From Muribaculaceae bacterium (GTDB lineage: Bacteria; Bacteroidota; Bacteroidia; Bacteroidales; Muribaculaceae), in NCBI GenBank assembly GCA_017473615.1, contig JAFUKL010000003.1, positions 1-38,668 on the forward strand: DNA of 38,668 bases, given 5' to 3'. Positions 11,204-38,668 of this stretch are shown here, piece by piece. Below the pieces are notes generated by a model. The model had not been told where the DNA came from and ran no database searches. It saw only the letters and a program-made list of their open reading frames with translations. Position numbers and translations under genes: made by a program. The stretch's first letter is position 1, and every line of letters begins with the position of its first letter.

Positions 11204-11224
11204 TGCTTTCCTGTTTTGAAGTTG

Positions 11225-11232
11225 CAAATTTA
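11225..11232 (-). promoter_or_regulatory. Promoter -7 box of the rnf operon
   Basis: Minus-strand TAAATTTG is an exact match to TAnnTTTG, about 22 nt before the ATG at 11203, so the leader would be about 15 nt. A degenerate -33 (CTTT, 11254-11251) lies 18 bp upstream. It fixes the start choice for the RseC-like gene. Confidence 0.5.
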
Positions 11233-11346
11233 GTCCATTTGTATCGAATTAAAGAAATTTTTCCGTAATAAAAGATTGTCCCGTTTTTCTTATTTGTATT
11301 CTATTTTTCCCATTGACACAAAAAGTCTCATACTCTATTCAGGTTG

Positions 11347-12240
11347 TTATTCACGATAAAAATAATCCTCGACACCTTTAAGCGTAGCGTTCTTCAACAA
11401 GACATTATGACGGCCATCAAGCAGATACAATACGGGCAATGATGGCAGATAATATAATTCATTATCGGTAACAGTCATCGAGGTATCACACACATCAATC
11501 CATGCATCGGGCAATTTTTGCCCTTTCCATTCATCAATACCACCTTCAACGCACACAGCAAGCAGCTTGAGACTGCCGCTATCCAACATATCATTTATCA
11601 ATGAAGACGCCGATAATTCTTGTTTCATAAACTTGCACGTTTCACAAGCCGGATCATTGAAAAAGACAAGCAGATACTCGGCTTCCACAGAATATAACGT
11701 GCCGGTCTTTCCATCCTTATACCCAAATGCAAAGTCAGTTGCTTTATTCCCTATACGATTTTTCATGACTGTATCCAACTTGTAACGTAAACGCTCCTTA
11801 ACAGCCTTTTCCACTTCAGGCATACATAACAACTTATTCAGAACCAATATATATAGTTCTTCATCATATAAAGACGAATTATATTCATAAAGATATTTTT
11901 CACCTAACCCAATAAAATAGTCCAACATTTTTTTATTTGCAGCAGCTCTGTCATACATATTTCCAAATGCCTCTTCCTGCATTGTAACGTACGTCATTAT
12001 ACCTAAGAAATCAGTAAATCCCCGTTCCGTAACATCTGTGTTCCCCACAAGTGTATTGTCGTTGAAATCAAACCTGTCCCAGTAATGAATCGCAAGATAA
12101 TTAACACTGTCTACCGATGATGAAAGAATCCCCGGCATATCAATCATCGGAAACATATTTTGCCGCCCTGAAGCAACAGGGCATACCAATCCCACAAAAA
12201 CATATAACAATATCTGTTTTACGTAAGTGTACATACTCAT
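11347..12240 (-). CDS. Secreted DUF5106/thioredoxin-fold protein
   Basis: About 297 aa from the ATG at 12240 (a second ATG is at 12234). A hydrophobic signal segment ends near VASG. The middle third is helical and resembles DUF5106 (HYWDRFDFND at about 57-66, followed by the helix around AFGNMYDRAAANKKMLDYF). The C-terminal part is thioredoxin-like, with a YLLVFFNDPACETCK strand-loop-helix and a CxxC at ACETC. Such proteins in Bacteroidota are thought to act in periplasmic or envelope thiol redox (TlpA-like). The promoter box TAAATTTG (12265-12272) lies just upstream, back to back with the tetR promoter, so a shared control region with the efflux operon is possible. Confidence 0.7.
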   Translation of the reverse strand: MSMYTYVKQILLYVFVGLVCPVASGRQNMFPMIDMPGILSSSVDSVNYLAIHYWDRFDFNDNTLVGNTDVTERGFTDFLGIMTYVTMQEEAFGNMYDRAAANKKMLDYFIGLGEKYLYEYNSSLYDEELYILVLNKLLCMPEVEKAVKERLRYKLDTVMKNRIGNKATDFAFGYKDGKTGTLYSVEAEYLLVFFNDPACETCKFMKQELSASSLINDMLDSGSLKLLAVCVEGGIDEWKGQKLPDAWIDVCDTSMTVTDNELYYLPSLPVLYLLDGRHNVLLKNATLKGVEDYFYRE

Positions 12241-29909: not shown

Positions 29910-31522
29910 TGCATATCCTTAGTTTTATGGTTAACATCAGTATTCAATCCGCACACACCTTCATAAATCCACGACATAAACTGCGCCTCATTCATGGTAT
30001 CACCCCATGCTATAGGATTCATGCCTTTCCAACGTTCCTGTATAAAATCTGCCATATCCGTCTTTGCCTTTTCAGCGCAATTATGCGCTTTCACCATAAG
30101 ACCTGCCGCACGACAGGCGCAAAGCCCTCCTTGACATGTTCCCATTCCCATTCTGGTGCGTCTACGCAAATTTACTAATTTATTTACATTTAAATGATCT
30201 ATAGCATAATTTATTTCACCGGCGGTGACACTTTCGCATTCACACACAAGAGAATCAGCTATTCTGTCACCGGCAGGAATCTTATCGGCAAATGAGCCAT
30301 GACGATATTTTGCCGCCTTTACGGCTGTCTTACCCTCATTCGAAATCTCTGTATTGCCATCTGAACCGGGTAGACAGTCAATTGCAGTACGACATTCAGC
30401 GGTATTACCGAGTTTGCGACATGCAAGATCGGTAGCCCACTCTGCCATAAGTCTGTATGTCATTAGTTTTCCACCTGTAATAGTAATGAATCCGCCAAGT
30501 CCGTCACGTTTTTCATGGTCGAGACAAACGATTCCGCGACTTATACTTCGTCCTGATGGATCATTGTCTGCAGCCACAAGCGGGCGAACTCCCGCATACG
30601 CTCTTAAAATTCGGGTAGTCGCAAGAGCCGGAGCAAGCATTTCACCTTCACGCATAAGTTCATCCACCTCCTCACGTGTCACACGCATATCGTCAACTTC
30701 TTCAAACGGAACTCTGGTAGACGTAGTCCCTATTACGCATATAGTATCACCCGGAACCAATATATCGGCATTGGCAGGCTTGCGGCAACGATTTATCACC
30801 ATATTGTTAACCCTATGCCCGAACACCAACAGCGAACCTTTCGCCGGAAACATATTTACCGTCACTCCCGCTTTGGATGCAACGTTATGCCCCCATATAC
30901 CGGCTGCGTTTATCGTCACATAAGCATAATAGCGATGCGTTTCCTTTGTTTTATGACTGAAAGCCTCAACCCCGACAACGATGCCGTTCTCTATAATCAA
31001 TCCGGTTACTTCATGATATGTGAGCAATTCCGCTCCATGCAACCTTGCATCCACTGCATTAGCCACAGTCAGCCTGAATGGGTCTACTGCTCCATCAGGA
31101 ACTCTCACTGCACCTATCAGTGCCGGATTCACAGACGGCTCAAGAACCTTTGCATCCTGAGGATCTATAATTTCTGTTTTTATTCCGGCAGCAGTACATG
31201 CTTCCACGAATTCAGACTGATACGCTATATCATCTTCAGGTAAAGTAATAAACAACCCGTCGGTTTCTTCCACACAATGGCTTGCAATCTTACGCAAAAG
31301 CATATTTTCCTCTATGCACTCACGCGCTGATTCGCCATCGGTAACAGCATAACGAGCACCGCTATGCAACAACCCATGATTACGCCCGGTAGCCCCATTC
31401 GTAAAGTCAAAACGCTCCAGCAAGAGTGTTTTCAACCCTCGCTTGGCACAATCTCTGGCAGTTCCTGCTCCTGTCGCACCACCGCCTATAACTATTACAT
31501 CATATTGATTAATGCCTTTCAT
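29906..31522 (-). CDS. glpA: Anaerobic G3P dehydrogenase subunit A
   Basis: 538 aa. FAD-dependent sn-glycerol-3-phosphate dehydrogenase: dinucleotide fold YDVIVIGGGATGAGTARDCA (7-26), the family block GATGRNHGLLHSGARY, and a C-terminal BFD-like [2Fe-2S] domain with C427, C429, C463 and C468 (VCECESV; GTCQGGLC). It oxidises G3P to dihydroxyacetone phosphate under anaerobic conditions. First gene of the operon, divergent from the DeoR-family regulator across 299 bp. No glycerol kinase gene is present, so G3P must come from outside via GlpT or from lipid turnover. Confidence 0.94.
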   Translation of the reverse strand: MKGINQYDVIVIGGGATGAGTARDCAKRGLKTLLLERFDFTNGATGRNHGLLHSGARYAVTDGESARECIEENMLLRKIASHCVEETDGLFITLPEDDIAYQSEFVEACTAAGIKTEIIDPQDAKVLEPSVNPALIGAVRVPDGAVDPFRLTVANAVDARLHGAELLTYHEVTGLIIENGIVVGVEAFSHKTKETHRYYAYVTINAAGIWGHNVASKAGVTVNMFPAKGSLLVFGHRVNNMVINRCRKPANADILVPGDTICVIGTTSTRVPFEEVDDMRVTREEVDELMREGEMLAPALATTRILRAYAGVRPLVAADNDPSGRSISRGIVCLDHEKRDGLGGFITITGGKLMTYRLMAEWATDLACRKLGNTAECRTAIDCLPGSDGNTEISNEGKTAVKAAKYRHGSFADKIPAGDRIADSLVCECESVTAGEINYAIDHLNVNKLVNLRRRTRMGMGTCQGGLCACRAAGLMVKAHNCAEKAKTDMADFIQERWKGMNPIAWGDTMNEAQFMSWIYEGVCGLNTDVNHKTKDMQ

Positions 31523-31564
31523 GACTATACTTCCGAATTATTATTACAATACCGTTTTCTTATC

Positions 31565-31588
31565 AAAGTTTTCATGCGATGAAACTTT
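31565..31588. promoter_or_regulatory. Inverted repeat in the glpA leader
   Basis: AAAGTTTTCAT-GCG-ATGAAACTTT (31565-31588), perfect except for one extra T in the left arm. It lies within the predicted 5' leader of glpA, 43-66 bp upstream of the start, and is a candidate GlpR operator or an RNA hairpin. Direct repeats TTTACGTTT follow at 31603-31611 and 31620-31628. Confidence 0.5.
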
Positions 31589-31638
31589 TAGCTTAAGTAA
31601 AATTTACGTTTTAAAAGCTTTTACGTTTCATTTCAAAA

Positions 31639-31670
31639 CAAAGGTATGTTATTTATTTTTCACAAACAAA
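31639..31670 (-). promoter_or_regulatory. Promoter of the glp operon
   Basis: Minus strand -7 box TACCTTTG (31646-31639), exact TAnnTTTG match, with TTTG (31670-31667) as -33 at a 20-bp spacing. The predicted leader of about 110 nt includes the inverted repeat and the direct repeats, where a repressor could act. Confidence 0.6.
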
Positions 31671-31821
31671 TATTTTGCATAAAAAATTTCTTCTTTTGAT
31701 ATTCTTTTTTCTTTTTGACAACATTTCATACCACCCCTTCTCTCAACTCCAATTTGCTCATATCGGCATTTTTGCTTAACTTGCAAACAAATAATTCACA
31801 ACGAAACGGAAGGATTCAGCC

Positions 31822-32592
31822 ATGACTAAAGAAGAAAGATATAACGCTATAATGAACTTGCTGCTTCAGCATGATTCTATGCTTGTTACAGAACTTGCCG
31901 ACAAACTCAACGTATCATCCGTAACAATCAGAAAAGACCTTACAGAACTTGAAAAAGCGCAAAGGTTATACCGCAATCACGGTAAAGCAATACTTATCAG
32001 TCCTTATGCGCCCAACCGTTCCATCAGTGAAAAAGAAAAATATCATACCGACGAGAAACAGATAATAGGTATTTACGGAGCAAAACTTATAGAGCCTAAC
32101 GACTCTATTATTATCGCCTCAGGCACCACAGTGCATGCGCTGGCACGTAACATCAACCCCACATCGCCGCTCACAGTAATAACTTCTTCAATGAAAGTGT
32201 CGGAGATTCTATCTGTATCAGATTTCGTAAATATAATACAACTTGGCGGCACATTACGACACAGCAGCCTTTCAGTAGTAGGAAACAACGCCGAAGAGTT
32301 TCTCGCCTATTTCGCATGTAGCAAGCTTTTTATTGGCGTTGACGGCATAGATCTTGATTTCGGGATAACAACGACCGATATGCAAGAAGCGTCACTTAAC
32401 CGCGTGATGATGAAAGCCGCTCAAAAGACAATAGTTCTTGCCGACAGTTCAAAATTCGGAAGACGCGGTTTCAGCAAAATATCCAACATGGAGGAAATCG
32501 ACCACATCATCACCGACAGTAAGGTATCACCCGGGATAGTGAAACAAATCGAAGAAATGGGAATCGAACTAACTATCGCAAACAGCTTTTAA
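31822..32592 (+). CDS. DeoR-family regulator, probable GlpR
   Basis: 256 aa. N-terminal DeoR helix-turn-helix: YNAIMNLLLQHDSMLVTELA, then DKLNVSSVTIRKDLTELEKA (about residues 7-46). C-terminal sugar-phosphate-binding domain: SIIIASGTTVHALARNI, then ADSSKFGRRGFSKI and IDHIITD. GlpR in other bacteria is released by G3P. Divergent from glpA, so it probably represses the glp operon (inference). GGAAGGA ribosome site. The 299-bp intergenic region to glpA contains the features listed separately. Its own promoter is not obvious; the best candidate is TTTG at 31753-31756 with TAACTTGC 20 bp later, a poor match. Confidence 0.82.
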   Translation: MTKEERYNAIMNLLLQHDSMLVTELADKLNVSSVTIRKDLTELEKAQRLYRNHGKAILISPYAPNRSISEKEKYHTDEKQIIGIYGAKLIEPNDSIIIASGTTVHALARNINPTSPLTVITSSMKVSEILSVSDFVNIIQLGGTLRHSSLSVVGNNAEEFLAYFACSKLFIGVDGIDLDFGITTTDMQEASLNRVMMKAAQKTIVLADSSKFGRRGFSKISNMEEIDHIITDSKVSPGIVKQIEEMGIELTIANSF

Positions 32593-32675
32593 GAATTACG
32601 GAAGTAATAGTGGGCTCCAAGCGGTTTGATAAAAAAACAGCCTAAAGAGCTTTAATGAATCACAAACATCGTATT

Positions 32676-33230
32676 TTAAAGCCGAGTTCGTTTTTTCGAA
32701 AATTCAAAACTGTTTTTACTCTTTCGTATCTCATTCAAGTATGCTGTGACATCCTTTATAGGGCGAAACGGCTCAATAATGTTGAGTTCTGTGTCAATAA
32801 TGGCATATACAACTTCTTCGTTATTATCCTCCATCCCGAAGCCATCATCATCGGCGAAATATCTACCATCGGGATAAAGCGTCCACGAAATAGCACATAA
32901 TCCATCTTTAAAATCGCCCCATCTGTTTATGCCGGCGTAACATATTGCTTTTGCCCGCGCATTACCGAAACCATACTTACAGGTCTTAGCTATCGCATCA
33001 TAGTCAATTTCATCGTCATTTACTAACAACACACCATCTGTAGTTGAAAGATTACGGATTTTACCAGTTAAAGTATTAGCTAAGTACAATTCATAATTTC
33101 GCCATCCTTCGCCATAAAAGAAAGCAATACCATCACCGGCAAGAAAGCCTTTTTGACCTTCCAATCCGGGATAACCGTGCACAAACACTTTACCATTTCT
33201 AATCTCAAACTTAATGTAATCCATATTCAT
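32676..33230 (-). CDS. Hypothetical protein, unknown function
   Basis: 184 aa, no family recognised. Soluble, without signal peptide. Rich in short repeated glycine/aromatic turns (YGEGWRNYELYLANTLTGK, GDFKDGLCAISWTLYPDGRY) and acidic residues, an all-beta look, with a basic tail (FSKKRTRL). Convergent with the DeoR-family regulator (83 bp gap, no clear terminator) and divergent from tRNA-Leu. ATG at 33230 or 33224. It could be a stand-alone immunity or stress protein, but no evidence supports either. Confidence 0.6.
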   Translation of the reverse strand: MNMDYIKFEIRNGKVFVHGYPGLEGQKGFLAGDGIAFFYGEGWRNYELYLANTLTGKIRNLSTTDGVLLVNDDEIDYDAIAKTCKYGFGNARAKAICYAGINRWGDFKDGLCAISWTLYPDGRYFADDDGFGMEDNNEEVVYAIIDTELNIIEPFRPIKDVTAYLNEIRKSKNSFEFSKKRTRL

Positions 33231-33322
33231 AACTTTTCCTTTATTGGTTTTCTAATAATGATGAAACTTTAATCAAAAATCTATCATCATTCATTTCATT
33301 TTTTGAAAAATACGTCAAAATA

Positions 33323-33353
33323 TTTGTCAGTTCCAAAATAATGCGTACCTTTG
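33323..33353 (+). promoter_or_regulatory. Promoter of tRNA-Leu
   Basis: TTTG (33323-33326), exactly 19 bp, then TACCTTTG (33346-33353): a textbook Bacteroidota -33/-7 promoter. The mature tRNA begins 12 nt after the -7 box. Confidence 0.85.
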
Positions 33354-33364
33354 CATTCGGATTC

Positions 33365-33446
33365 GCGTGTGTGGCGTAATTGGTAGCCGCGCTAGACTTA
33401 GGATCTAGTGCCGTGAGGCGTGGGGGTTCGAGTCCCTTCACACGCA
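33365..33446 (+). tRNA. tRNA-Leu (UAG anticodon)
   Basis: 82 nt. Acceptor arms GCGTGTG (33365-33371) and CACACGC (33439-33445) pair perfectly, with discriminator A (33446). The anticodon stem CTAGA/TCTAG closes the loop CTTAGGA, anticodon UAG at 33399-33401. The extra arm typical of leucine tRNAs and GGTTCGAGTCC of the T arm are present. CCA is not encoded. Confidence 0.95.
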
Positions 33447-33454
33447 CGAAATCT

Positions 33455-33488
33455 AAAAAGAGGAAGATAAAAATCTTTCTCTTTTTTA
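33455..33488 (+). terminator. Terminator of tRNA-Leu
   Basis: 14-bp stem AAAAAGAGGAAGAT / ATCTTTCTCTTTTT (33455-33468 with 33473-33486, one G-U), four-base loop, T-rich end. It lies just after the tRNA. Confidence 0.8.
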
Positions 33489-33532
33489 TTTTCGTATGGT
33501 AGCGGACACCAGCTTTCCAATAAAAAACAAGA

Positions 33533-33563
33533 AAAGCGATTCAATCGTTGATTGAACCGCTTT
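33533..33563 (-). terminator. Terminator of the original tRNA-Val transcription unit
   Basis: AAAGCG (33533-33538) pairs with CGCTTT (33558-33563), and TTCAATC (33540-33546) with GATTGAA (33550-33556), with one mismatch; on the minus strand a T-rich tract follows. It stands 8 bp past the CCA end of the tRNA-Val fragment, where the terminator of an intact tRNA-Val gene would be expected. Confidence 0.7.
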
Positions 33564-33570
33564 GTTGTTG

Positions 33571-33618
33571 TGGTGGGCGTTGACGGATTCGAACCGCCGA
33601 CCCTCTGCTTGTAAGGCA
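33571..33618 (-). other. Attachment site: 3' fragment of tRNA-Val (UAC)
   Basis: On the minus strand this is the 3' part of a valine tRNA: the anticodon loop CTTACAA with UAC, 3' anticodon stem GCAGA, variable loop, T arm GGCGG-TTCGAAT-CCGTC, acceptor strand, discriminator A and an encoded CCA. The 5' half is missing: the bases that should form the D arm, the acceptor 5' strand and part of the anticodon stem are unrelated sequence, with TATGC where TCTGC is needed. A truncated tRNA 3' end next to a helix-turn-helix gene cluster is the usual mark of an element integrated into a tRNA gene by a tyrosine recombinase. The intact tRNA-Val should lie at the other end, outside the window. Confidence 0.85.
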
Positions 33619-33690
33619 TACTCCACATAACCGCAACCAACTGGTTAATAATATTTTAATGTATCTCTATTTTACTTCTTCACACAAACT

Positions 33691-34188
33691 TCACACATTG
33701 TTGTGATTCTGTTTGGTTTCGTAATCAATTCCATTTTTAATAAGAAGCTCTTTTAATGCAAAGTTCTCGTGTAATAATCGAGTTAAATCCTTTCGCAATT
33801 CATCAACTTGGGAATTAAGAAAGTCATTTCTGTCTTGCAAGCGTTCTATTCTAGACAATGCCTCAGATTCATTTGCATATTTCGCTTCTGTCATCTTCTC
33901 CATTATTCCGACAAATTTCTCAAAAATGGCACTATCATTTATAATGCTGTTTGTATTGTCGGACTGCGACTTCGATACACTGTTATTACCTATATCTTCT
34001 ATATAATAACTATCTATGTCCTCAATTTCAAATATTTCAATTATTTTATCCAATTTCTCCGGAGGCAAAGGGCTTCGCCCTCTCTCTATATTGGATAAAA
34101 AGCTCTGTTTTACTCCAAGTTTTTCAGCCAAATCTTTTTGGCTAATGCTGTAATCAGAGCGTATTTTAGCTAAATCTACTCGCTGCAT
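33691..34188 (-). CDS. XRE-family repressor
   Basis: 165 aa from the ATG at 34188 (an upstream TTG would add five residues). N-terminal Cro/CI-type helix-turn-helix: YSISQKDLAEKLGVKQSFLS followed by NIERGRSPLPPEKLDKIIEI (about residues 13-52). The second half is charged and predicted helical/coiled-coil (EKFVGIMEKMTEAKYANESE, RIERLQDRNDFLNSQVDELR) with heptad leucines, likely for dimerisation. No peptidase domain, so not a LexA-type self-cleaving repressor. Divergent from the Cro-like gene at 34364 across a 175-bp region with repeated TGATAT sites, the lysogeny-switch arrangement. Confidence 0.85.
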   Translation of the reverse strand: MQRVDLAKIRSDYSISQKDLAEKLGVKQSFLSNIERGRSPLPPEKLDKIIEIFEIEDIDSYYIEDIGNNSVSKSQSDNTNSIINDSAIFEKFVGIMEKMTEAKYANESEALSRIERLQDRNDFLNSQVDELRKDLTRLLHENFALKELLIKNGIDYETKQNHNNV

Positions 34189-34247
34189 TTTAGTTATATT
34201 CAATAAATATATAAGTTATATTTGTTGGAAAATCCAATTGAATAGTT

Positions 34248-34255
34248 TATCTTTG
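34248..34255 (+). promoter_or_regulatory. Rightward -7 box of the element's early operon
   Basis: TATCTTTG on the plus strand, an exact TAnnTTTG match, about 108 bp before the Cro-like gene. A second plus-strand match, TATATTTG, lies at 34217-34224. The long leader would contain the TGATAT sites. Confidence 0.4.
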
Positions 34256-34259
34256 CTCT

Positions 34260-34351
34260 TGATATTACTAATTTCAATCAAATCAATAAGTATTTTTATT
34301 TATGCAAATATAATAATTCTTGCTGATATAACAAAATATTTATTGATATAA
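34260..34351. promoter_or_regulatory. Operator sites of the repressor/Cro switch
   Basis: Three direct copies of TGATATnA: TGATATTA at 34260-34267, TGATATAA at 34324-34331 and TGATATAA at 34344-34351, 20 bp between the last two starts. They are interleaved with the rightward (34248) and leftward (34305) -7 boxes and are the likeliest binding sites of the two regulators. Confidence 0.45.
34305..34312 (-). promoter_or_regulatory. Leftward -7 box of the repressor gene
   Basis: TATATTTG on the minus strand (34312-34305), exact TAnnTTTG match, giving a leader of about 110 nt before the repressor ATG at 34188. Confidence 0.4.
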
Positions 34352-34363
34352 TTAAATTTTATT

Positions 34364-34588
34364 ATGTCATTTACATTTAAGGAACTTTATCAATTAGAAA
34401 AGAACAAGCCAACAGCAGGGCAATTATTTATCGAACGAATTGCGGAAATAACTTGCCGACAACCTGCCACTATCAGAATGTGGCTTAACGGCACACAATT
34501 TCCTAACGACACAGCAATAAAAGCTATCGCCAAGGAACTCAATGTCGATGAAGATTCGCTGTTTCCAAAGAAAAAGACATTATTATGA
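34364..34588 (+). CDS. Small Cro-like DNA-binding protein
   Basis: 74 aa. Helix-turn-helix pattern around FIERIAEITCRQPATIRMWL and NGTQFPNDTAIKAIAKELNV, then a short basic tail (FPKKKTLL). Size and divergent position opposite the XRE repressor fit a Cro-type antagonist. Its stop TGA overlaps the ATG of the next gene (ATGA). Confidence 0.7.
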   Translation: MSFTFKELYQLEKNKPTAGQLFIERIAEITCRQPATIRMWLNGTQFPNDTAIKAIAKELNVDEDSLFPKKKTLL

Positions 34589-34785
34589 TTACGAGTACAG
34601 AACCCCAAGTAGCTTTGAACGGAAGATACTCCATTAAAGATACTTGCAAAGCATTATCCATTTCCAGAGAAACATTACGAAGATATACCTATGCAGGGCA
34701 TATTAAATGTGGCTTTCGCAGGAACACAGCTCGCAAGTTCTATTTAGGAAGTGAGATTTTGCGTTTTTGGAAAGCACAAATATAA
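34585..34785 (+). CDS. MerR-like helix-turn-helix protein (excisionase-like)
   Basis: 66 aa. Winged helix-turn-helix of the HTH_17/excisionase type: YSIKDTCKALSISRETLRRY then TYAGHIKCGFRRNTARKFYL (about 13-53). Such proteins serve as recombination directionality factors or small regulators in Bacteroidota integrative elements. Overlaps the Cro-like gene by 4 bp. Whether it is Xis cannot be told without the integrase. Confidence 0.7.
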   Translation: MITSTEPQVALNGRYSIKDTCKALSISRETLRRYTYAGHIKCGFRRNTARKFYLGSEILRFWKAQI

Positions 34786-34796
34786 ATGAATATTGT

Positions 34797-35552
34797 ATGA
34801 AAGGCTGGATTAATCTCCATAGGGATATCACGAATCATTGGATTTGGCATAATCCACGCCATTTTCGCTGGTGGATATTACTGTTACTAATGGCACAATG
34901 GGAACCTCGGAAAGTTATTTTTGGGAAAACTTCAGTTCAGTTGCAACGAGGACAAATCTGCACTACAATTAGATTCCTTGCTCGCCAAATGGACGCTTGC
35001 AGTCATACAACCATAACGTTTTTGAATAGTTTGGAAGAGGCAGAAATGATACATCGTGTATCAACCTCACAAATGACAATAATAACCATTACAAATTATG
35101 ACAAATACCAGTTAAATGAAACAACAAAAAAATCAAAAAAAGAACGCAAAACGCAACACAAAATGCAACAGATTAAAGAAGATAATAATAAAGAAGAAAA
35201 CAATAATTCATCTATTAATACGCGAGAAGAAGAATTAAAATTTATAGATGAAATAGAATCATCTTCAGACTTTCTTAAAAGTATTGCACAAAATTTGGAT
35301 TGCGACATTATACAAATCAGAGAACTTTTCTCGGAATTTGTTTCAGAAATCAGTCTCACGGGGAAAATACATACCGATACAGTTGATTTCAAAAAACATT
35401 TTCTGAATTGGACTCGTAGAAGAATTCAAAACGATGAAAACAATAGCAGAGAATATCAAAACCAAGAAACAAGCAGAAACGATAAATATGCGGCTCGTCG
35501 AGGAAATCGTACCATTGCTGAGAAATCAGAGGAGTATAGAGAAACGTTTTAG
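34797..35552 (+). CDS. Replication-initiation-like protein (DnaD/replisome-organizer type)
   Basis: 251 aa from the ATG at 34797 (an upstream in-frame TTG at 34767 would overlap the previous gene). The N-terminal half is a winged-helix-like domain (MKGWINLHRDITNHWIWHNP, then RGQICTTIRFLARQMDACSH, TITFLNSLEEAEMIHRVSTS), resembling phage replisome organisers and DnaD-type initiators. A low-complexity lysine/asparagine/glutamate linker (about 105-150) is followed by a C-terminal region. Gene order before a DnaC-like ATPase supports a role in replication of the element. The C-terminal 119 nt overlap the next gene in another frame. Confidence 0.6.
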   Translation: MKGWINLHRDITNHWIWHNPRHFRWWILLLLMAQWEPRKVIFGKTSVQLQRGQICTTIRFLARQMDACSHTTITFLNSLEEAEMIHRVSTSQMTIITITNYDKYQLNETTKKSKKERKTQHKMQQIKEDNNKEENNNSSINTREEELKFIDEIESSSDFLKSIAQNLDCDIIQIRELFSEFVSEISLTGKIHTDTVDFKKHFLNWTRRRIQNDENNSREYQNQETSRNDKYAARRGNRTIAEKSEEYRETF

Positions 35553-36153
35553 ATTCAATCTCACGGTAGAGAATGCATTGGCTCTATTGACTGCCTCTTA
35601 TAAAGTAGAGGTTGAACGACGATTGCGTGAATTTATACTTGATAACAACACTCAAAAAAACCTCATAAGATTGGCTGAATATATAACATCTTCAGTTCCC
35701 AAATTCGGAGTTATGTTGTGTGGTACTTGCGGTAACGGCAAATCAACACTCATGTATGCCTTCCAGCAAGCATTAAACTATCTTGCCGAAAGACACCATT
35801 TTGATTTTATGGGTAGTTATTTCAAGCCGAGAATGACAATCTATGATTCTTATGAACTATCCCAAATAGCACGAAACATCAAAGAGTTTACTCTAATCAA
35901 GAATAAACCGCTTTTAGGCATTGACGACCTCGGGAACGAACCTGTTGAGATTCTTGAGTTCGGCAATCCGTTACACCCGGTAATCAGATTGATTGAATAC
36001 AGATATATTAATCAGTCATTTACTTTCATTACAACAAATCTTACCGCCAAAGAGATACGAGAGAAGTATGGAGACAGAATTGCCGACAGATTTAATGAAA
36101 TGTTACATGTAATAATTTTTGAAGATGGCTCATACCGAAAAAACAGACAATAA
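35434..36153 (+). CDS. DnaC-like AAA+ ATPase (helicase loader)
   Basis: 239 aa from the ATG at 35434; a second ATG at 35488 would shorten it by 18 residues. Walker A GTCGNGKST at 97-105, Walker B LLGIDDLG (160-167), sensor-1 TFITTNL and arginine-finger-like region DRIADRFNEM. DnaC/IstB-type ATPase, expected to load a replicative helicase onto the element's origin together with the preceding protein. Overlaps the upstream gene by 119 nt (65 nt if the later start is used) and the downstream gene by 29 nt. Confidence 0.82.
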   Translation: MKTIAENIKTKKQAETINMRLVEEIVPLLRNQRSIEKRFRFNLTVENALALLTASYKVEVERRLREFILDNNTQKNLIRLAEYITSSVPKFGVMLCGTCGNGKSTLMYAFQQALNYLAERHHFDFMGSYFKPRMTIYDSYELSQIARNIKEFTLIKNKPLLGIDDLGNEPVEILEFGNPLHPVIRLIEYRYINQSFTFITTNLTAKEIREKYGDRIADRFNEMLHVIIFEDGSYRKNRQ

Positions 36154-36643
36154 CTTTTATATCTATCTTGATATCGACCCTTATTTGGCTCAGTGGTTTA
36201 TTAATGAGCAAGGAGGCAACAATCCTGTGCAACTAAAAAGGGGCTGTATGGAAAGTAATATACTGGAGCAGTTCTTAAAGGCTACTCCAAATGATATTCT
36301 TCCGGATATAGACAGAGAAAATAAACTTCCCATAATAATACCCGAATTTAGGCATAAACCACCGATAAGCTACAATTATCTTCCGCCAAAAGCAATGCAA
36401 ATGCTTATAAATTGCATTAGAAATAGATTTGACTTGGAATTATGGAATTCTCTCCATAAATTCACAACAATATTCAGACGACAAGATGAACTTATATATG
36501 CATTTATGGAAAAACACAATATTGAGATTAATGATACCAATTGGAACGCAATCGCCAAACGGTATCGTCGTAAACGAGACCTTTACCATACCTATGAACG
36601 CATAAAAAGATATAAGAAAAAAAAGAAAGAATCCAAAGAGTGA
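36125..36643 (+). CDS. Hypothetical protein with basic C-terminus
   Basis: 172 aa from the ATG at 36125 (overlaps the ATPase gene by 29 nt, so translation is probably coupled). No family recognised. The C-terminal third is strongly basic and helical (IAKRYRRKRDLYHTYERIKR, then a run of lysines), which suggests nucleic-acid contact. Position after the helicase loader suggests a replication accessory role (inference). Confidence 0.6.
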   Translation: MAHTEKTDNNFYIYLDIDPYLAQWFINEQGGNNPVQLKRGCMESNILEQFLKATPNDILPDIDRENKLPIIIPEFRHKPPISYNYLPPKAMQMLINCIRNRFDLELWNSLHKFTTIFRRQDELIYAFMEKHNIEINDTNWNAIAKRYRRKRDLYHTYERIKRYKKKKKESKE

Positions 36644-36694
36644 TTTTCGTAGAATATACGCAATATACGCTTATCAAATTATCAATATTTTGCT

Positions 36695-37120
36695 ATGGAA
36701 AACATATGTCAATCATTACCGGGTATCGCACAAATCGGCTATGTCGAATGCGAAAGTCTTCAGCCCGATGTCGCTCTCAAACATTCATCGGGCATTCCGG
36801 TGGGTATCTTCTCTGAAATTGTGCCGGTCATCTTCTTCGGCGAGCCGTCTTGCGAGGCAACTTCGGAATACGACAGCAATGGGCGTAAGGTGGTTACCTC
36901 TCTCAAATTCTTGTCGAACGACAACATTCAGCTACACAAACACCTCGCTTTCATAATCACTGACGCTTCGGAAACTTCCTATCTCATCGGCTCTCGTGAA
37001 CGACCGTACCCGGTCATCAAGTCTTCTGCGAATAGTGGTACTGCCTCTAGCGACAGCCATGCCACTACCTACGAAGTCCGCTGGACTGCCATTTGTCCCC
37101 CTGTGCCGTGTGCAATATAA
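36695..37120 (+). CDS. Hypothetical protein of the element
   Basis: 141 aa. No family recognised with confidence. It reads as a mostly beta protein (VPVIFFGEPSCEATSEYD, KFLSNDNIQLHKHLAFIITD, YLIGSRERPYPVIKSSANSG). Codon use changes at this point from the AT-rich replication module to a more GC-balanced style shared with the 124-aa gene and ardA, so it may begin a separate module. It starts 51 bp after the previous gene. The 79 bp after its stop, up to 37199, show nothing recognisable. Confidence 0.6.
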   Translation: MENICQSLPGIAQIGYVECESLQPDVALKHSSGIPVGIFSEIVPVIFFGEPSCEATSEYDSNGRKVVTSLKFLSNDNIQLHKHLAFIITDASETSYLIGSRERPYPVIKSSANSGTASSDSHATTYEVRWTAICPPVPCAI

Positions 37121-37199
37121 CGGATTGTTACACTATGTGATTGTTTGTCGGGTAATTGACTGTGATTTATTTATGGCTCACTTGATTTACGCTGATTGA

Positions 37200-37411
37200 C
37201 ATTGCTTTATAGACTAATGTTTGTGATGTTTTAACCGCAAAGTTACAACTCCGTGATTTGAACAAGGACAAGCATGTTTTATCTGAAATCTGCCTCTCAT
37301 TCAAGAGTGTATTTCCGATAAAATCCTTGTTCCTGTAAATCTCTTGACGAGTTGGTTGGTTGCGTATAAAACAATCAACAACATTATGTCTAATTAAATT
37401 TTGAAGCAATG
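37200..37411 (+). promoter_or_regulatory. 212-nt palindromic element A (candidate ssDNA promoter)
   Basis: Long imperfect inverted repeat ending on the start codon of the 124-aa gene. Paired blocks (left/right): CATTGCTT 37200-37207 with AAGCAATG 37404-37411 (contains the ATG); TAGAC 37210-37214 with 37388-37392; AATGTT 37216-37221 with 37380-37385; GATGTTTTA 37225-37233 with 37367-37376 (one bulged A); CGCAA 37236-37240 with 37360-37364; CAACTC 37246-37251 with 37349-37354; ATTT 37256-37259 with 37337-37340; GAACAAGGA 37260-37268 with 37324-37332. The only symmetric unpaired patch in the middle is 37241-37245 against 37355-37359, over the minus-strand -7 box TAACTTTG (37245-37238). When the minus strand folds, this promoter points toward the gene. 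Pairing was derived by eye. Confidence 0.6.
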
Positions 37412-37783
37412 AGTCAATCTATCAGAAATCAAGCGGAATCAGAGGAAAACAAATTCCCCTATTGCACAAACTACTATGTAGCTGTTCATTGGTGCAACAA
37501 TCACTTTATCTTATGCAACAGCATTCCCCAAGTGGATTTCACTGTGTATGACAATGCAGAATTCGATTTGGATAATACCGAAATCTATCAGTGGTTTCTT
37601 TCGGACTGCTCTTATTCAGAAAAGGAATTTCTTCAAAAGCATTTCCCGGATCTGCATTTTACATACTCGGACAAACTCGATGTTTGGGTACTTGCTGTTG
37701 ACCACTTCGGTACTGCATGGGCTTATGTCGAGGCTGTTACTGACCTCAAGCGTGCAGTACGCGAACTGGGTGAACGCGAATAA
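37409..37783 (+). CDS. Hypothetical acidic protein, candidate early-entry factor
   Basis: 124 aa. No family recognised. 21 acidic against 9 Lys/Arg residues, rich in aromatics, with a short Asp/Glu-rich stretch (DFTVYDNAEFDLDNTEIYQW). Soluble, no signal peptide. Its start codon is the tip of the 212-nt inverted repeat upstream, the same architecture that precedes ardA. This suggests expression in the same circumstances, so an antirestriction or other anti-defence role is the working guess (inference). A UUCG-loop terminator follows the stop after 17 bp. Confidence 0.65.
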   Translation: MSQSIRNQAESEENKFPYCTNYYVAVHWCNNHFILCNSIPQVDFTVYDNAEFDLDNTEIYQWFLSDCSYSEKEFLQKHFPDLHFTYSDKLDVWVLAVDHFGTAWAYVEAVTDLKRAVRELGERE

Positions 37784-37800
37784 CAATCCGTTCAGCGTTA

Positions 37801-37830
37801 AAAGCCTCACTTCGGTGGGGCTTTGTTCTA
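37801..37830 (+). terminator. Terminator after the 124-aa gene
   Basis: AAAGCCTCAC (37801-37810), loop TTCG, GTGGGGCTTT (37815-37824): a 10-bp stem with one G-U and a stable UUCG tetraloop, followed by GTTCTATC. It separates this gene from ardA, so ardA needs its own promoter. Confidence 0.75.
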
Positions 37831-37893
37831 TCTTCAGCGAGTGGTCGGACTTTCTTGTCGATGTTCATTCAGTCTTTATGGTGGGATAATTAT

Positions 37894-38132
37894 CCATAAA
37901 CGAATTAAAACATAATGCTCCGCCGAGCACTTTTACACCGCAAAGTTATTGCCGGGTACTTTCAACTGCAAGGTCAAGCACAGGTGTCGGGGCTGAAATC
38001 TCCACACCTAAATTCGGGTAGTATTTAATCTCCGAACCTTGCATAATGTTGAGTATCGGCTCTTTTCGGGCAGTGTAAAAGTCGCTCCTTTACGGAGCAT
38101 AGTGTTTAACATTTTAATTCATTTTGATATGG
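37894..38132 (+). promoter_or_regulatory. 239-nt palindromic element B (candidate ssDNA promoter of ardA)
   Basis: Paired blocks (left/right): CCATA 37894-37898 with TATGG 38128-38132 (contains the ardA ATG); GAATTAAAA 37902-37910 with 38112-38120; ATGCTCCG 37915-37922 with 38093-38100; GAGC 37925-37928 with 38084-38087; ACTTTTACAC 37929-37938 with 38073-38082; GC 37940-37941 with 38070-38071; GCCG 37951-37954 with 38057-38060; TACT 37957-37960 with 38052-38055; CAAC 37963-37966 with 38048-38051; TGCAAGGT 37967-37974 with 38036-38043. The 9x9 internal loop 37942-37950/38061-38069 is almost wholly unpaired and covers the minus-strand -7 box TAACTTTG (37948-37941). Same layout as element A; terminal loop of 61 nt. 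Confidence 0.6.
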
Positions 38133-38668
38133 ATAATTTGAATTTCTCCCACCCTTCAGACTATTTCGAATGTGCATCGGAAAGTCGCTCGTTCCCCTCT
38201 CACGAAGAAATGAAAGAACACTCGCATGACTTCGACAGCGAGAATCCGGCTGTTTATTGTGGCACTTACGGAAAGTACAACAATGGCTCACTTCATGGTA
38301 TGTGGATTGACTTGACCACTTTCTTTGATTATGATGAGTTCATCGAGTTCTGCAAAGATTTGCATGCCGATGAAGAAGATCCCGAATTGATGTTTCAGGA
38401 TTATGAGAATTTTCCTCGCGAGTTGTATTCGGAAAGTTGCTTCGATGAAGACACATTCGACAAAATCATCAAGTATGCTAATCACTCTAATCGTGAAGCC
38501 CTTGACGCTTTCCTCTCTTACTTCAACATTGAAGATATTGACAAATTCGATGAATTTTATCAAGGCGAATTTTGCAGTGAAGAAGCATTTGCCGAATATA
38601 TCGTTGATGAATGTTATGACCTTGAACGAACAATGGGCAATCTCTCGTTTTACTTCGATTACGACAAA
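38129..38668 (+). CDS. ardA: ArdA antirestriction protein, truncated by window end
   Basis: The first 180 codons are present and open to the last base. After a short variable N-terminus the ArdA pattern is plain: VYCGTYGKYNNGSLHGMWID, EFIEFCKDLHADEEDPELMF, QDYENFPRELYSES, then EFYQGEFCSEEAFAEYIVDE. ArdA is an elongated DNA mimic that blocks type I restriction (and modification) enzymes when a conjugative element enters a new host. The charge supports this: 46 Asp/Glu against 11 Lys/Arg in the visible part. Preceded by palindromic element B, whose right arm ends on the ATG at 38129. Two minus-strand frames inside the gene are antisense shadows. Only the extreme C-terminus is likely to be missing. 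Confidence 0.9.
   Translation, partial: MDNLNFSHPSDYFECASESRSFPSHEEMKEHSHDFDSENPAVYCGTYGKYNNGSLHGMWIDLTTFFDYDEFIEFCKDLHADEEDPELMFQDYENFPRELYSESCFDEDTFDKIIKYANHSNREALDAFLSYFNIEDIDKFDEFYQGEFCSEEAFAEYIVDECYDLERTMGNLSFYFDYDK

Follow-up and report, generated by a model that had tools for sequence, protein, structure and literature searches.

The two long imperfect palindromes at the right-hand end of the window, i.e. of the whole 38,668-nt stretch of DNA analysed here, belong to a large and strongly conserved family of hairpins in mobile elements of Bacteroidota. Hairpin A, in front of a gene for a 124-aa protein, and hairpin B, in front of ardA, are probably single-strand-gated promoters, the Bacteroidota counterpart of the Frpo and ssi promoters of F-like plasmids. 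This interpretation, put forward earlier from the bare sequence, is now supported by the linkage of the hairpins to particular genes, by covariation and by promoter boxes of the Bacteroidota type, whose strand, spacing and mispairing fit it.

Hairpins A and B and their family

Both palindromes of the sequence-only reading exist and fold far better than shuffled sequences (Table 1): as single-stranded DNA, A reached a minimum free energy of -41.1 kcal/mol and B one of -42.2 kcal/mol, and in neither case was any of 200 shuffles as good. The blocks proposed to be shared by the two were confirmed as well, with TTTTAACCGCAAAGTTA/TTTACACCGCAAAGTTA recovered as a direct repeat and CAAGGnCAAGC, GAAATCT, GTATTT and CCTTG collinear in A and B. 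The further claim that each palindrome ends on a start codon stood for A and B themselves, where the ATG is in the outermost pairs, and did not hold as a rule for the family: among the 47 non-redundant members in which a gene starts no more than 100 nt away, 27 had the whole ATG base-paired to the left flank, and the gap between the hairpin core and the ATG ranged from below 0 to about 300 nt. A search of window positions 30000-38668 against Rfam, at E up to 1, returned no match on A or B; the matches obtained were one tRNA and two below the cut-off, istR and SNORD75, at 37737-37826 and 33859-33931. The match at 37737-37826, which overlaps the terminator-like hairpin before B, is probably due to chance.

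Table 1. Features at the right-hand end of the window, with strand and the evidence for each
Feature	Position	Strand	Evidence or remarks
Left end of the host prophage, beside tRNA-Leu	33365..37120	.	Genes listed in the text
Hairpin A, long imperfect palindrome, upstream of the 124-aa gene	37200..37411	-	z -8.0
Hairpin A, conserved core	37225-37374	-	Covariance-model match, 90.6 bits; seed included A
-7 box of A, TAACTTTG on minus	37238..37245	-	Minus-strand fold: TAACT unpaired, TTG paired
-33 region of A, CCTTG on minus	37263..37267	-	Paired with 37325-37329; spacing TTG-N17-TAACTTTG
Predicted RNA start zone of A, from pairing	37367..37372	+	Right arm opposite the bases past -7; ~40 nt before ATG 37409
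124-aa gene behind hairpin A	37409..37783	+	No Pfam/PHROG family at E 0.001
Terminator-like hairpin with weak T-run, between the 124-aa gene and hairpin B	37800..37829	+	Sequence and fold
Hairpin B, upstream of ardA	37894..38132	-	z -5.7
Hairpin B, conserved core	37928-38085	-	Covariance-model match, 182.5 bits; seed included B
-7 box of B, TAACTTTG on minus	37941..37948	-	All but the last base unpaired
-33 region of B, CCTTG on minus	37969..37973	-	Paired with 38037-38041; spacing TTG-N20-TAACTTTG
Predicted RNA start zone of B, from pairing	38074..38080	+	~50 nt before ardA ATG 38129
ardA, cut by the contig end	38129..38668	+	Pfam PF07275, E 1.8e-26

A first covariance model, made from seven hairpins, matched 56 places at E <= 0.01, spread over 39 of the 247 genomes in our sample of the window's family, and a second one, made from 43 sequences, matched 22 of 395 genomes sampled from the phylum (E <= 0.001); both searches were run with strict filters, under which weak matches are lost. 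Seven weaker rows among the 56 model matches, being on the opposite strand or partial, were dropped and 49 were used. In IMG/VR a pattern of the core loop was present in 44 stretches, and the exact pattern of shared blocks 1 and 2 in none. Altogether the family comprises 118 matches, near-identical copies included, and 66 non-redundant ones, stretches of less than 110 nt having been left out of the latter. The IMG/VR pattern matches L102, L112 and L118 were judged not to be hairpins of the A/B kind and were removed before both sets were formed; L102 and L112 are still included in the promoter-box count on 49 sequences given below. A match on a genome contig of an Alcaligenaceae bin (L009) was discarded as a chance match, none of the neighbouring genes being present.

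Hairpin B itself gave no blastn match among 72,556 plasmid records at E 0.1, with the record of F in the collection, and none among phages, and its relative L117 matched 12 plasmid and three phage records, the latter being unannotated metagenome fragments. On five hairpin-bearing IMG/VR contigs, six of eight large proteins matched phage families, namely terminase (L130, L138, L136), tape measure (L130, L122) and head protease (L104). The window's own genome (G000) has two more hairpins, on contig 16 (1317-1476) and contig 51 (239-397).

The direction of the hairpins was uniform in 10 of the 12 stretches with at least two matches at E up to 0.001 (the window, L058, L066, L177, L184, L193, L195, L196, L198 and the L012-L013 prophage). 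One exception, L146, has one hairpin in a conjugative transposon and another (32326-32490) in an element nested inside this CTnDOT-type transposon, where the gene behind it carries the annotation putative phage abortive infection protein; the other exception is a weak match (L210:3120-3251, E 0.00022) on the opposite strand, 2 kb from the main hairpin. It should be added that in L198 the public annotation puts a small opposite-strand hypothetical protein (11210-11509) over the hairpin match at 11259-11411, and that this is probably not a gene.

Genes and elements behind the hairpins

According to BLAST clusters, the first gene downstream coded for ArdA in 31 and for SSB in 7 of the 118 matches, near-identical copies counted, while 11 matches gave no gene. 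Pfam confirmed the tested representatives of ArdA and SSB and identified ArdC, a Mob_Pre relaxase and AbiEii once each among the downstream genes, many of which have no known function; no psiB was noticed among them. Starting from the protein family, 62 ArdA matches were found in 50 of the 247 genomes; of the 30 loci fetched, each the best match of its genome, 29 had a model match just upstream on the same strand, 28 of them at E < 1e-4 and one at 0.007. Fourteen of these 29 hairpins lay outside the 56 places of the first model, and of the rest several belonged to the seed or were near it. No hairpin was found at the remaining locus (L222), where the contig ends about 300 nt upstream. The expectation that many matches with conserved structure would stand immediately upstream of ardA or ssb was thus borne out by both genes, together with covariation above that of controls (see below).

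The left end of the prophage that hosts A and B contains genes for a repressor, an HTH protein, excisionase-like, DnaD-like and DnaC-like proteins and proteins of 174 aa and 141 aa (p174 and p141). Towards the right-hand end of the window the order is p141, hairpin A, the 124-aa gene, the terminator-like hairpin, hairpin B and ardA, and the terminator-like hairpin would, on its predicted fold, set B and ardA apart as a unit of their own. The order p141, hairpin, ardA recurs in related loci with enough flank (L006, L007, L008 and L011), and in L005 the hairpin and ardA are found with p174 and p141 behind ardA. In L011 the element was traced through 54 kb and continues into head protease, terminase, portal and integrase; given the similar gene order in this relative, the right-hand end of the window was identified as the start of a temperate tailed prophage. 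Unlike the Frpo and ssi promoters, which the sequence-only reading named as parallels, these two copies consequently do not lie in the leading region of a conjugative element.

The L011 prophage has three hairpin matches, one of them weak (E 0.00028). In this Bacteroidales prophage the hairpins are located at L012:7598-7755, L013:8545-8692 (the weak one) and L013:9826-9978, each before a gene and in the same direction. A tblastn search with the 141-aa protein against phages gave no match. Relatives of the 124-aa protein were present in two further genomes among the 247, and none were found in IMG/VR; neither of the two related genes has a hairpin upstream, and therefore hairpin and gene may be exchangeable units. 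From its position, the 124-aa protein possibly has an anti-defence role.

Among the conjugative relatives, a circular B. fragilis record with mobABC, tra genes and tet(Q), of CTnDOT type by its genes, carries a hairpin; a P. vulgatus plasmid with a relaxase and tra genes carries three, which precede two small genes as well as PcfK/PcfJ and a ribose-phosphate pyrophosphokinase-like gene; and a partial B. fragilis plasmid carries four. The MOB-suite types in PLSDB list these three records as non-mobilizable, contrary to their gene content. Gene names in G467, G559, L177, L191 and L193 were assigned by eye, aided by the annotation of the CTnDOT-type record.

The genes behind hairpins were co-directional with the relaxase or mobilization gene in all seven elements in which both were seen, from about four lineages (G559, G467, NZ_OR675140, the element nested in NZ_OR675140, NZ_CP103198, NZ_OP227220 and L194). 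Since relaxase genes usually enter last in transfer, as stated in a passage of PMC11541004, this orientation suggests that the transferred strand would be the template strand that folds. Four conjugative relatives have their hairpins some 18-30 kb away from the oriT region, unlike elements in the classic leading-region position.

Covariation, folding strand and promoter boxes

The matched substitutions noticed between the arms of A and B are real: changes on both sides with the pairing kept occurred in 10 of 46 pairs of a seven-sequence alignment, two-sided changes in 39 of 46 pairs of a structure-fitted alignment of 43 sequences (89.7% of cells paired) and both-sided changes in 20 of 38 predicted pairs of an alignment of 13 ArdA-type members made on sequence only, counts that do not equal independent events, as the aligned sequences are related. 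The covariation score of the 43-sequence alignment was 0.533, versus 0.152 in shuffles and at most 0.095 with the partners slid. A plain alignment of 22 divergent members, analysed with RNAalifold, yielded a weak consensus fold that favoured plus over minus (-17.4 vs -8.9 with RNA parameters and -3.4 vs -1.0 with DNA parameters), which counts against folding of the minus strand. Strand preference was therefore judged on single sequences, and covariation on model-based and close-relative alignments.

In single-sequence folds, 19 of 22 non-redundant members and 58 of the 66 had their lower energy on the minus strand, although the models behind the latter set had been built on the plus strand. 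The mean difference between strands was 4.48 kcal/mol, and shuffled copies of the same sequences gave 1.45 kcal/mol, so that base composition explains about a third of the gap; the lean towards minus went beyond the member's own shuffled mean in 54 of 66, and flanking windows had no lean (58/123, mean 0.00). When wobbles were forbidden, the single mismatches within helices of the 22 members were A.C rather than G.T on the plus strand (22 vs 1) and G.T rather than A.C on the minus strand (16 vs 2), and the same count in the 66 members gave 46 A.C vs 14 G.T on plus and 33 G.T vs 16 A.C on minus; per member, wobble-type mismatches leaned to the minus strand in 27, to the opposite one in 8 and were tied in 31. 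Terminator-like hairpins of the same loci, which function at the RNA level, leaned the opposite way, favouring the transcribed strand in 48 and the other strand in 25 of 78 cases. Hairpin A is strand-neutral, with the same energy on each strand, and hairpin B is more stable on minus (-47.3, compared with -42.2 on plus). In plasmid F, the template strand of the three leading-region hairpins was the more stable under three ways of picking windows (minus favoured in 19/19, 12/12 and 44/44 windows), and control stretches of F had the opposite lean or were neutral (0/9, 16/57 and 10/62). On balance, these predicted energies point to folding of the minus strand, which is the template for the downstream gene.

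For the primary sigma factor of Bacteroidota, a passage of PMC7366714 gives TAnnTTTG at -7 and TTTG near -33. The minus strand of the left arm has the combination TTG-N16-22-TAnnTTTG in 40 of 49 sequences, compared with 0 of 49 for the plus strand of the right arm; in the larger set the corresponding numbers were 50 of 66 members for the minus strand, strict boxes being absent in 16, and 0 of 66 for the coding strand, scanned from 350 nt left to 180 nt right of the apex. In a plain palindrome the two arms would carry boxes alike, and the predicted boxes are distributed differently; as the other arm is without a -7, plain duplex DNA offers no such promoter towards the gene. In the 40 members with both boxes, the TA of the -7 was mostly unpaired (mean probability 0.55 and 0.73), the TTTG of the -7 was paired (0.10-0.19 unpaired) and so was the -33 region (mean 0.14 unpaired). 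In the predicted minus-strand folds of A and B, likewise, the -33 is part of a helix and the -7 falls within an internal loop, so that its TA is already open. A simple -35/-10 scan of the plasmid F hairpins did not pick out F's own boxes, hence the box geometry is uncalibrated on a proven case.

Proposed mechanism, alternatives and related systems

The 3' arm of the minus strand carries TTG-N17-20-TAACTTTG, which is of the type of the primary Bacteroidota sigma-factor consensus, and we propose that this strand, once single-stranded, would fold into the long hairpin. RNA polymerase would bind the hairpin, start near its base, copy the 5' arm and enter the 124-aa gene or ardA, with an early burst of protein that would end once the strand becomes double. 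In the conjugative relatives this would be the strand that is transferred; for the prophage in the window, which belongs to a tailed phage with double-stranded DNA that is not known to enter cells single-stranded, the single-stranded or extruded state would have to arise otherwise, by replication or by cruciform extrusion. That one class of structure-gated promoters is common to conjugative elements and dsDNA tailed phages of Bacteroidota, with phages also firing their anti-restriction genes, before or during the establishment of their DNA in a new cell, whenever the template strand is single-stranded or extruded, is a tentative idea, to which we would not give quite an even chance.

Extrusion could also be the whole explanation, supercoiling driving the palindrome out of double-stranded DNA and the minus hairpin being used without any single-stranded genome. 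Such a cruciform promoter would work for phages as well as for conjugative elements, and this accords with members in tailed phages with terminase, portal and tape-measure genes, with the three matches in one prophage and with a promoter geometry that is alike in phage and conjugative settings. We nevertheless regard it as unlikely, as a cruciform folds both strands, whereas minus was favoured over plus here, and long interrupted palindromes should extrude poorly.

The conserved loops, the covariation and the nearness to the start codon might belong to a structured RNA, i.e. a 5' untranslated region that controls translation or stability of the downstream mRNA, and the consensus fold of the plain alignment, somewhat better on plus, agrees with this. 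Single-sequence stability and wobbles, however, favour the strand that is absent from such an RNA, no member has a consensus promoter on the coding strand in the 350 nt left of the apex (0/66), and no Rfam family was matched; moreover, terminator-like hairpins stand upstream in the window, L006, L007, L008 and L011 (under strict criteria they were detected in only 4 of 65). A structured RNA is very unlikely. We consider it highly improbable that the minus-strand boxes, which do read leftward in duplex DNA, drive an ordinary leftward transcript from a palindrome that is incidental or binds a regulator, since the left-hand 141-aa gene points right in 22 of 22 clustered loci, and covariation of the right arm and linkage to the right-hand gene would be left unexplained. 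Least probable of all is a single-strand initiation site at which primase or RNA polymerase primes synthesis of the complementary strand and not an mRNA: the title of a 1997 paper reports Frpo to do both, but the tight placement before particular genes and the several copies in some elements fit transcription better.

The single-strand-gated promoter, which we prefer, has its closest parallels in Frpo1 and Frpo2 of F and ssi of ColIb-P9, likewise long hairpins upstream of early genes of the ssb/ardA type. As in F, the template strand folds better than the coding one, the boxes are inside the hairpin and there are often several hairpins per element. The family differs from Frpo and ssi in that the blastn search with B found no sequence similarity, and in its Bacteroidota sigma-factor boxes, the other host phylum and its occurrence also in tailed prophages. 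On features that can be tested in silico, it would appear to work like Frpo, except for location and sequence similarity.

Two other known systems invite comparison. Coliphage N4 has its early genes read from tiny DNA hairpin promoters by the virion RNA polymerase; the present family shares with it the placing of phage early genes behind a DNA hairpin, but its members are ~150-240 nt long and have boxes for the host sigma factor. In the invertible promoters of Bacteroides the promoter boxes lie between inverted repeats, a likeness that extends to the phylum, but the orientation of the boxes is constant in the hairpin family (50/66 against 0/66), whereas flipping would show both. In F, the promoter boxes, which are of sigma-70 type, form inside the hairpin, according to passages of PMC9849209 and PMC11541004. 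The latter, a 2024 survey of single-strand promoters, based its search on sigma-70 boxes and on similarity to five known Frpo/ssi sequences; in its main text no word begins with 'Bacteroid'. Our literature search, with subscription papers and preprints outside its scope, found no paper on single-strand promoters in Bacteroid*.

If the proposed mechanism is true, single-strand-gated early expression is not confined to the sigma-70 world and occurs in a dominant gut phylum, and the hairpins can be used to search conjugative elements and phages of Bacteroidota for early and anti-defence genes. The early genes behind them, for ArdA and SSB, are those that a newly arriving element needs first. The family also raises the question why tailed phages carry such switches. 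Beyond the promoter boxes, the apical loop (AAATCTCCA...GGGTAGTATTT; ~37998-38028 in B) is among the most conserved parts of the hairpins, and it may be bound by a protein.
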